Positions 13,685-43,059 of a stretch of 64,000 nt of DNA are shown here, in pieces. The DNA comes from Micromonospora sp. MA102. Lineage in GTDB: Bacteria; Actinomycetota; Actinomycetes; Mycobacteriales; Micromonosporaceae. The position numbers and the translations under genes were made by a program. Where the stretch lies: contig NZ_JAMWEG010000003.1 of assembly GCF_025460765.1 (NCBI RefSeq), positions 496,001 to 560,000 of the forward strand. Direction: 5' to 3'. Below the pieces are notes generated by a model. The model was given only the letters and a program-made list of their open reading frames with translations. It was not told the DNA's origin and did no database searches. Numbering within the stretch: position 1 is the first letter of the stretch; each line of letters opens with the position of its first letter.

Positions 13685-14083
13685 CCCGGTCGACCGGTCC
13701 GGCCGCGCATTGACCGGCTATGACCGGTATGCCGGGATGTCCAGTGCGCGGGTGGAACCGGGGCCGCCGGGCCGAGCGCCGGGGAAGCCGGTACACTTGT
13801 CACCGTAGGTGCCCATGACGGGCGCGTGGGCACGATGCGATCGGCCGGCGGACCGCGATGCGGTTCTCCCGAGCCGCTCCGTTTTGACCCGCGCGGCTGT
13901 GGTAGGTACTCTTTCCCCTTGTGCCCGGGCCAGCCCGGGCAATGCGTGCGTGCGCTGGAGCCGGTGAACCGGTGATCGCGCGGCCGCACGACAGAGCCGC
14001 AAGACCTGGCGTCGGGAGTTTCCTGCGCCGGTGACAAAAACCCGGTAGGACACGCGAGTGACCGTGCCGGGACCGTGACTTGG
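13685..14083 (+). other. noncoding region before rpsL
   Basis: About 530 bases between the DUF4190 gene and rpsL carry no believable gene. They hold the str-operon promoter at 13884-13912 and the leader element at 14082-14103. A second TACACT at 13792-13797 lacks a matching -35 box. Confidence 0.5.
13884..13912 (+). promoter_or_regulatory. probable str operon promoter
   Basis: TTGACC (13884-13889), a 17-base spacer and TACTCT (13907-13912). This is the best housekeeping promoter match in the region and gives an rpsL leader of nearly 300 bases. Confidence 0.6.
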
Positions 14084-14103
14084 GCGACACGCCCGACCGC
14101 GGG
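14082..14103 (+). promoter_or_regulatory. leader element shared with rpsJ leader
   Basis: GCGACACGCCCGACCGCGGG (14084-14103) is identical to 18908-18927 in the rpsJ leader. Its first part can fold as GGGCG-ACA-CGCCC (14082-14094). It sits 114 bases before the rpsL start. Role unknown. Confidence 0.55.
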
Positions 14104-14217
14104 TGCTGGGACCCCCGTCAGGTGGCCCTGGTTGCAAGGTAGGAGAGCCGTCCATCAGGCCGGCTAGAGCAGACGGCGCGGTCGCCTCGCAGCGGCCGAA
14201 GGGAGCGGAGAAACCCG

Positions 14218-14592
14218 GTGCCCACCATTCAGCAGCTGGTCCGAAAGGGCCGTCAGGCCAAGACGACCAAGACCAAGACCCCGGCGCTCAAGGGGTCTCC
14301 CCAGCGTCGCGGCGTGTGCACCCGCGTGTACACCACCACCCCCAAGAAGCCGAACTCGGCGCTGCGCAAGGTCGCTCGTGTCAAGCTCAGCAGCCAGATC
14401 GAGGTGACCGCCTACATCCCGGGCGTCGGCCACAACCTGCAGGAGCACTCGATCGTGCTCGTCCGCGGCGGCCGTGTGAAGGACCTCCCCGGCGTGCGGT
14501 ACAAGATCGTTCGCGGCTCGCTGGACACCCAGGGTGTCCGCAACCGCAAGCAGGCTCGCAGCCGCTACGGCGCGAAGAAGGAGAAGAGCTGA
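14218..14592 (+). CDS. rpsL: 30S ribosomal protein S12
   Basis: Decoding-centre protein of the small subunit. It has 124 residues. K43 (in TPKKPNS) and K88 (in GRVKDLPG), the classical streptomycin-resistance positions, are both wild-type lysine. The GTG at 14218 gives the standard N terminus [12 protein letters not shown] and follows GGAG. First gene of the str operon rpsL-rpsG-fusA-tuf, one base before rpsG. Confidence 0.98.
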
Positions 14593-18667: not shown

Positions 18668-18697
18668 TTAGCGTCGCCGCCGGTCGTGCGGCATACT
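18668..18697 (+). promoter_or_regulatory. possible S10 operon promoter
   Basis: TTAGCG (18668-18673), an 18-base spacer and CATACT (18692-18697), just after tuf. A moderate match; it would give a roughly 300-base leader before rpsJ. Confidence 0.35.
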
Positions 18698-18768
18698 AGT
18701 CAGGTTGCGTAACGACGGTCAGTTACCTGCGTCTGGTTAACGCTGGACCTCCGGGTGACAGACAGTCT

Positions 18769-18812
18769 CGCGTAGGGTGGTTGATCGCCCCTGGCGGTCA
18801 ACCACCCTCGCG
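18769..18812 (+). promoter_or_regulatory. 20-bp hairpin in the rpsJ leader
   Basis: CGCG, one bulged T, then AGGGTGGTTGATCGCC pairs with GGCGGTCAACCACCCT and CGCG around a CCT loop, giving 20 pairs with one G-U. It could end read-through from tuf or be part of a leader regulating the S10 operon. It has no U tract. Confidence 0.6.
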
Positions 18813-18907: not shown

Positions 18908-18933
18908 GCGACACGCCCGACCGCGGGGGTCGG
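18908..18933 (+). promoter_or_regulatory. rpsJ leader element shared with rpsL leader
   Basis: Exact copy (18908-18927) of the 20-nt element at 14084-14103. Here it overlaps two small stems: GGGCG/CGCCC (18904-18918) and CCGACC/GGTCGG (18917-18933). A further 5-bp stem CCTGT/ACAGG lies at 18943-18962. The rest of the 350-base spacer shows no gene. Confidence 0.55.
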
Positions 18934-19005: not shown

Positions 19006-19314
19006 ATGGCGGGACAGAAGATCCGCATCCGGCTCAAGGCCTATGACCACGAGGTCGTCGACTCCTCGGCTCGGAAGATCGTCGAGACGGTGACGCGTAC
19101 CGGGGCGCAGGTCGCTGGCCCGGTGCCGCTGCCCACGGAGATCAACCGTTTCTGCGTCATCCGCTCGCCGCACAAGTACAAGGACTCGCGCGAGCACTTC
19201 GAGATGCGCACGCACAAGCGTCTGATCGACATCATCGACCCGACCCCGAAGACGGTCGACTCGCTCATGCGCCTCGACCTGCCGGCTGGCGTCGACATCG
19301 AGATCAAGCTGTAG
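19006..19314 (+). CDS. rpsJ: 30S ribosomal protein S10
   Basis: Small-subunit head protein that also serves as NusE in antitermination complexes with NusB. It has 102 residues, the standard actinobacterial length, with the conserved start [16 protein letters not shown] and the loop [11 protein letters not shown]. The ATG at 19006 follows AGAAGGAACAG. The frame continues far upstream only through leader sequence. First gene of a 21-gene S10/spc block, 11 bases before rplC. Confidence 0.98.
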
Positions 19315-42320: not shown

Positions 42321-42336
42321 AGGCCCGCAAGTGACC

Positions 42337-42425
42337 CACGGGAGCCCGGTGCCACCGGGCTGAGAGGGGGGCTGGAAGCCCCCGACCGTCGAACCTGATC
42401 CGGGTAATGCCGGCGCAGGGAGGAG
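42337..42425 (+). promoter_or_regulatory. TPP riboswitch (THI element)
   Basis: Thiamine pyrophosphate aptamer. The conserved CTGAGA is at 42360-42365, and GAACCTGATCCGGGTAAT followed by GCCGGCGCAGGGA begins at 42391; both are hallmark segments. The 3' edge of the aptamer runs directly into GGGAGGAG, the ribosome binding site of thiE, with no terminator stem between. Control is therefore most likely at translation initiation. Confidence 0.95.
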
Positions 42426-42432
42426 AGTTGCC

Positions 42433-43059
42433 GTGCCGTCCCTGGGACGACTGCATCTGATCACCGACACCCGGCCGGGGCGGGAGCCCCTCGCTGTGCT
42501 GCGTGCCGCCCTGCCGGTGGCCCGCGCCGAGCTGGTCGTCCAGGTCCGGGTGGAGGACGACGCCACCGATCGGGAGGCGTACGAGCTGGCCGGCCGGGTG
42601 GTCGGGCTGTGCCGGCCGTACGGGGCGACGTGCCTGGTCAACGACCGGCTGCACGTGGCGCTGGCGGTCGGCGCCGCCGGGGGCCACGTCGGCGCGGAGG
42701 ACCTGCCGGTGGCGGCCGCCCGCCGGGTGCTCGGCGTCGGCGCCGTGCTCGGCGCGACCGCGCGGGAGCCGGGCGGCGCCGCCGCGGCGGTCGCCGCCGG
42801 GGCCAGCTACCTGGGCGTGGGCCCCTGTCACGCGACCACCACCAAGTCCGGCCTGCCCGAGCCGATCGGCCCGGCCGGGCTGCGCGCGGTGGCCGGTGCC
42901 GTGGACGTGCCGGTGATCGCCATCGGCGGGGTGACCGCCGCGTCGGTGCCGGCGTTGCGGGCCGCCGGGGCGTACGGGGTGGCGGTGGTCGGTGCGCTGT
43001 CCGGCAGCCCCGATCCCGGCCGCACGACCGCCGAGCTGATCGAGGCGCTGGCGTGCTGA
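42433..43059 (+). CDS. thiE: thiamine-phosphate synthase
   Basis: Joins HMP-pyrophosphate with the thiazole phosphate to give thiamine phosphate. It has 208 residues, a TIM barrel. Present are N70-D71 (the magnesium site), GGHVGAEDLP (83-92) and the phosphate loop GVGPCHATTTK (128-138). The first motif, normally QxRxK, reads Q37-V-R39-V-E41, so the usual lysine is glutamate. The GTG at 42433 follows GGGAGGAG, the riboswitch-controlled site. First gene of the thi operon; overlaps thiO by seven bases. Confidence 0.88.
   Translation: MPSLGRLHLITDTRPGREPLAVLRAALPVARAELVVQVRVEDDATDREAYELAGRVVGLCRPYGATCLVNDRLHVALAVGAAGGHVGAEDLPVAAARRVLGVGAVLGATAREPGGAAAAVAAGASYLGVGPCHATTTKSGLPEPIGPAGLRAVAGAVDVPVIAIGGVTAASVPALRAAGAYGVAVVGALSGSPDPGRTTAELIEALAC

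Follow-up and report, generated by a model that had tools for sequence, protein, structure and literature searches.

In E. coli, the str and S10 operons are controlled by autogenous ribosomal protein leaders, with S7 acting on the former and L4, the autogenous regulator of the S10 operon, acting on the latter. These leaders are RNA structures and use a different protein for each operon. WhiA is an ancient regulator that is best known for sporulation. The available portions of PMC11701221 describe a core, GAYACRCY, that precedes the rpsJ operon in the majority of the whiA-bearing species studied there, including Actinobacteria, and that is followed downstream by a second motif specific to the clade. 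In M. gallisepticum, the same portions give EMSA, MST and reporter evidence for WhiA binding to the rpsJ promoter, where WhiA on the core and the second motif represses rpsJ and ATP relieves the repression. In S. venezuelae, the part of PMC3781837 at hand places a WhiA ChIP-seq peak 75 bp from the rpsJ start and describes WhiA targets without consistent orientation that share GACAC alone, with no further conserved flanks over all targets. According to the same text, rpsJ is down in the whiA mutant, indicating activation, and the targets also include infA (a strong one), rpsH, efp and rpsA, which are expressed less in the mutant. Beyond WhiA, excerpts of PMC3207917 describe 5' UTR stretches shared by infA/infC and by rpoA/rpsM in M. 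tuberculosis, and the accessible text of PMC8470358 presents ribosomal protein control in the Actinobacteria as a subject of which almost nothing is known.

The 64-kb window analyzed here, meaning the whole stretch of DNA under study, contains two exact copies of the 20-mer GCGACACGCCCGACCGCGGG on the + strand, at 14084-14103 and 18908-18927. The first base of each copy lies 134 nt before the start of rpsL and 98 nt before that of rpsJ, respectively. Both belong to a longer element, CGACACRCCCGACCGCGKGGGTCGG, which we describe with R1, a sequence-only model built from 40 instances and applied with a match threshold of E<=0.05. The relevant features of the window are as follows.

13884..13912, + strand: predicted housekeeping promoter of rpsL, TTGACC-N17-TACTCT (pattern match; predicted +1 about 166 nt before the element)
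14085..14109, + strand: 25-bp element CGACACGCCCGACCGCGGGTGCTGG, leader of the str operon, 133 nt ahead of the rpsL start codon (R1 26.7 bits, genome E 5.6e-5)
14086..14093, + strand: GACACGCC, fitting by its sequence the WhiA core GAYACRCY given in the available portions of PMC11701221
14218..14592, + strand: rpsL, ribosomal protein S12, GTG start at 14218 (PF00164, 138.9 bits)
18690..18709, + strand: -10-like region GGCATACTAGTCAGGTTGCG upstream of the rpsJ element, recognized by eye (kept in L009 and L010; the strict promoter pattern misses the region)
18909..18933, + strand: 25-bp element CGACACGCCCGACCGCGGGGGTCGG, leader of the S10 operon, 97 nt ahead of the rpsJ start codon (R1 31.5 bits, genome E 1.7e-6)
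18910..18917, + strand: GACACGCC again, with the same fit to the core from those portions of PMC11701221
19006..19314, + strand: rpsJ, ribosomal protein S10, ATG start at 19006 (PF00338, 134.3 bits)

A first-pass annotation of this DNA had reported an exact 20-mer common to the rpsL and rpsJ leaders, and the search of the 7.0 Mb genome bears this out: there are two exact copies and no further one, a single copy with one mismatch, none with two and eight with three. The reversed 20-mer pattern, used as a control, matches the genome more often than the real one (23 versus 11 matches), and the matches with three mismatches are therefore regarded as background. Within the window, a tolerance of up to three mismatches returns two matches, against a mean of 0.24 in 100 dinucleotide shuffles, none of which reached two. 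The annotation's description of both genes as translation components likewise holds, with Pfam assigning S12 to rpsL and S10 to rpsJ, and S12, EF-G and EF-Tu to the str operon of the window. Its GTGG(G)CC sequences are present after the 20-mer, as GTGGCCC and GTGGGCC, but they follow at about 18 and 10 nt rather than at 20-30. The one-mismatch copy (G000:C27:3564-3583, - strand; locus L003, about 1501-1520) sits between genes for a CinA-family protein and a helix-turn-helix protein, as assigned by Pfam, the latter being, at a guess, ClgR-like. It scores 20.8 bits under R1 and lacks the right half of the element and, given this absence and the fact that a congener (G095) has only two R1 matches, it may be due to chance. 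We also considered a wider regulon and rejected it, since after the two sites and this copy the R1 matches in the genome fall to 16.2 bits or less and G095 has no more than its two.

R1 matched 109 of the 118 genomes from the class (94 of the 100 of good quality). Among the 30 loci drawn from the best R1 matches, all present the element in sense direction with rpsJ (21) or rpsL (9) directly downstream on the same strand, and rpsL or rpsJ likewise lies downstream in all of 40 further loci, which we chose for low GC content or pairing. In one Streptomyces, CGACACACCCGACCGCGTGGGTCGG precedes both genes. In a set of loci collected by rpsL similarity (L009-L049 and L062), the element scores at least 13.6 bits in 26 of 41 rpsL leaders (25 at 14 bits or above, and L036 at 13.6) and in 11 of 18 rpsJ leaders; L044, where the leader runs off the contig and the wrong stretch was taken, is left out of these 41 and of the instance set described below. 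Leaders that lack the element score -8.5 or less, and its presence is thus nearly all-or-none per leader. It is absent from several Microbacteriaceae, from Brevibacterium, from Acidimicrobiia and Nitriliruptoria loci, and from the rpsJ leaders of L011-L013, L015 and L021.

A draw of 119 genomes from the phylum, in which 83 non-matching genomes are known by count only, yielded 16 matches to R1, ten in class members and six in others. All six of the latter (18.4-21.5 bits) were inspected and none lies near rpsL or rpsJ. Among 52 rpsL and rpsJ leaders from non-actinobacterial loci, a set that excludes Firmicutes rpsL leaders, none exceeded 10 bits and the best scored -14.0. In 42 genomes with both sites, most of them picked because both had matches, the rpsJ copy scores as high as or higher than the rpsL copy in 40 cases. 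Identity between the two sites of a genome at variable columns is 0.774, versus 0.726 when permuted (31 distinct pairs), a difference that we do not use as evidence of coevolution because shared ancestry explains it equally well. The matches in 109 of the 118 class genomes and the 42 genomes with both sites strongly support a common signal ahead of the str and S10 operons.

The instance set comprises 109 distinct sequences (63 from rpsL and 46 from rpsJ), which align without gaps or any change in length. Ten of the 25 columns are invariant, column 7 alternates between G and A and column 18 between G and T, and columns 12-15 vary moderately; the invariance is partly circular, because instances were selected with a pattern allowing one mismatch. 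Since columns 12-15 all vary, the possibility raised in the annotation that conservation reflects an internal gene is unlikely. The median distance from the element to the start codon is -90 for rpsL (-190 to -59) and -96 for rpsJ (-315 to -57). Dyad symmetry was evaluated and is not claimed, because the 8 of 12 pairs found in the window form are reached by 15% of shuffles; the Streptomyces form has 9 of 12 pairs, reached by 0.9%.

Upstream of the element, a TTGACN-N16-19-TANNNT promoter is found in 43 of the 63 rpsL instances and in none of 109 shuffled leaders, the control consisting of one mononucleotide shuffle per leader. The predicted start precedes the element by 15-193 nt in the rpsL instances with a promoter, and by 166 nt in the window. 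Because these canonical promoters stand upstream, the element is predicted to lie inside the rpsL transcript. For rpsJ, a recognizable upstream promoter is present in only 3 of 46 instances, one of them (L038) overlapping a second copy of the element; from these few cases and the -10-like stretch recognized by eye, the rpsJ element may also lie within the transcript. Locus L038 carries copies 315 and 57 nt upstream of rpsJ, and it is the upstream copy that overlaps its promoter, TTGACG-N18-TAGAGT. No -10-like hexamer occurs at a fixed offset from the element, the best offset accounting for 4 of the 109 instances. With this result and with rpsL promoters located upstream, a promoter box alone, the annotation's alternative, can be set aside.

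The first half of the element, GACACRCC, fits the WhiA core GAYACRCY in 102 of the 109 instances, including both copies in the window. The source genome encodes a single WhiA (G000:C9) with all three Pfam domains (PF10298, PF14527 and PF02650). This protein is identical at 239 of 320 residues (75%), and at 68 of 83 in the helix-turn-helix stretch, to the WhiA chain of PDB 8dy9, which we take to be S. venezuelae WhiA with RNA polymerase. Because the shared 25-base element contains a WhiA docking sequence, one protein probably tunes both operons together. The annotation had proposed a common leader RNA signal or binding site; the common signal stands, the RNA structure does not, and the binding site is the better half of that proposal, most likely for the DNA-binding protein WhiA. 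With good confidence, we read the two copies as paired WhiA operators that couple the str operon to the S10 operon and through which WhiA, downstream of the housekeeping promoter, would adjust the transcription of both together. Under this model, the 20-mer would be the conserved part of two composite operators in rpsL and rpsJ leader DNA, with the core GACACRCC read by the WhiA helix-turn-helix domain and the conserved second half, GACCGCGKGGGTCGG, taking the auxiliary role, recognized either by the homing-endonuclease-like domain or by another protein. By analogy with the auxiliary motif of M. gallisepticum, it may be the WhiA domain that this half serves. Given the position of the sites downstream of a housekeeping promoter, WhiA would most likely modulate the two operons or block them in an adjustable way, and synthesis of the two ribosomal sets would follow the energy or growth state. 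The sequence of the element, its position and class-wide conservation and the whiA gene are results of this analysis, and the WhiA core and the binding of WhiA at rpsJ in S. venezuelae and M. gallisepticum come from the cited papers; that WhiA also binds at rpsL, what the second half does and in which direction control runs, we infer.

As in the M. gallisepticum system described in the available portions of PMC11701221, the rpsJ operon is preceded here by GAYACRCY. The second motif of M. gallisepticum is GTTGT, resembling a -35 box; its candidate counterpart here is the conserved second half, GCGKGGGTCGG, which differs in sequence. Unlike that system, the site lies within the predicted leader and has a twin at rpsL. 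The GACAC core is shared with the S. venezuelae rpsJ site, and the peak position given in the consulted part of PMC3781837 coincides with that of the element in Streptomyces leaders, where the 25-mer spans -84 to -60 of rpsJ (L062, Streptomyces sp.). The element is, however, far longer than the GACAC to which that part of the study limits conservation over all targets. The E. coli leaders control the same two operons, but through a separate RNA structure and protein for each, whereas here a single shared sequence without supported structure precedes both. The likeness to the M. tuberculosis stretches described in the excerpts of PMC3207917, where translation genes of an actinobacterium also share leader sequence, concerns other genes.

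Several observations count against the assignment to WhiA. In 7 of the 109 instances, 6 of them in small genomes with leaders of about 50% GC, the core is AACACACC, which falls outside GAYACRCY, while the remainder of the element is intact. Its length and its constant sense orientation in 30 loci contrast with the pentamer and the inconsistent orientation in the part of PMC3781837 at hand, and the direction of control disagrees between the activation seen in S. venezuelae and the repression seen in M. gallisepticum. The infA leader of the window has no GAYACRCY-type core, though infA is a strong target in S. venezuelae, and the scarcity of recognizable promoters upstream of the rpsJ element also weighs against this assignment. 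The presence of whiA, finally, does not discriminate between genomes with and without the element: whiA was detected in 111 of the 118 class genomes and in 8 of the 9 lacking the element, and its near universality leaves no contrast. The element is also present in 6 of the 7 genomes without a whiA match, with an assembly completeness of 75-86% in five of the six and of 91% in the other. A missing match is weak evidence, since the control search with PF02650 returned only 3 of 14 known genomes and did not recover Bacillus subtilis, which carries the gene (PMC10714963).

Some of these features would suit an element acting as RNA, that is, a short leader site recognized mainly by its sequence, bound by a ribosomal protein, another RNA-binding protein or the ribosome, and controlling translation or attenuation of both operons: its place within the predicted rpsL transcript, its invariable sense orientation, its length beyond the WhiA core and the integrity of the rest of the element where the core is altered. 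We nevertheless consider this explanation unlikely. RNAalifold predicted no pairs and no consensus fold on 40 sequences, no pair of columns covaries as a base pair among the 109 instances, and many of them lack intact CCGACC/GGTCGG and CCCG/CGGG pairings. The GGGCG/CGCCC stem noted in the annotation does pair in both window copies, but it is not kept elsewhere, is absent before the Streptomyces copies and was discarded as a general feature. In the flanks, where the annotation had suggested looking for co-variation, the outer stems (GGCCCAC/GTGGGCC, formed in the rpsJ leader of the window by the downstream GTGGGCC and an upstream GGCCCAC, and CTTTTAC/GTAAAAG) are striking in single leaders but barely exceed permutation over all instances, at 13.88 versus 13.32 ± 0.25 for 110 sequences including the wrong stretch of L044, with the highest of 200 permutations (13.97) above the observed value. 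The 16S and 23S rRNA of the genome show no similarity or complementarity to the element beyond shuffles (lowest 27/200 shuffles). No leader matched an Rfam family at its gathering score, the weak matches being Actino-ugpB (17.5 of 42.5 bits) and toga_FSE (26.7 of 40), and Table 1 of PMC7247131, with its 20 leader candidates, does not contain the element. A conserved RNA structure with covariation is therefore not supported.

A second promoter near the genes, marked by the element and dependent on WhiA and a WhiB-type protein, would agree with the overlap between the -315 copy and TTGACG-N18-TAGAGT in L038 and with the fall of rpsJ in the S. venezuelae whiA mutant, as given in the part of PMC3781837 at hand, but the absence of a -10-like hexamer at a fixed offset and the canonical promoters upstream of most rpsL instances make it very unlikely. 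The same proposal could draw on the WhiA chains of PDB 8dy7 and 8dy9, which presumably represent complexes with RNA polymerase and WhiB. An identity of the two 20-mers by chance, or recent copying between the leaders, would draw on the many near matches of the 20-mer in GC-rich DNA that the control counts reveal. Both operons, however, carry the element class-wide with different flanks, in keeping with the annotation's view that the differing flanks speak against a recent duplication; this conservation refutes the explanation, to which we assign next to no probability.

If both sites are indeed WhiA operators, the rpsJ site is essentially known, having already appeared in print, and the rpsL twin looks new as a WhiA target. 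The literature examined does not present rpsL as a target, and the gene has no occurrence in the main texts of PMC11701221 and PMC3781837; the check covered main texts and not supplements such as Table S1 of the latter, which may hold rpsL. A literature text search with CGACACGCCCG returned only titles on unrelated subjects. More tentatively, and at somewhat less than an even prospect, WhiA might clamp the str and S10 operons simultaneously across the class through near-invariant 25-bp composite operators in their leaders, as a global governor of ribosome production in the Actinomycetes; were the reader not WhiA, another factor would recognize an unstructured 25-nt leader signal nearly unchanged throughout the class. 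Such a circuit would tie the supply of ribosomes to a developmental regulator throughout the class, in agreement with the proposal of an ATP-sensing repressor in mycoplasmas. The well-kept site heading both operons offers a concrete handle on this control, with one candidate protein, two operators and clear, testable base changes.

Further sequences were observed in and around these leaders. In six small, low-GC genomes (L168-L173), where the leader copy has AACACACC, a second GACACGCC, followed by an A-tract, lies 186-258 nt upstream of rpsL, beyond the predicted promoter. In these genomes this copy may be the true WhiA core, or it may belong to the neighboring gene. Right after the predicted rpsL start site, L169, L170, L171 and L174 carry TGCTCTTTT..AGAGC, which we take to resemble the boxA antitermination signal of E. 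coli rRNA leaders. The rpsJ leader of the window contains a strong hairpin, GGGTGGTTG...CAACCACCC, at 18776-18806, upstream of the element, which is also present in L009 and altered in L010. Elsewhere in the window, a TPP riboswitch was identified at 42328-42438 on the + strand (62.3 bits, against a gathering score of 54.3).
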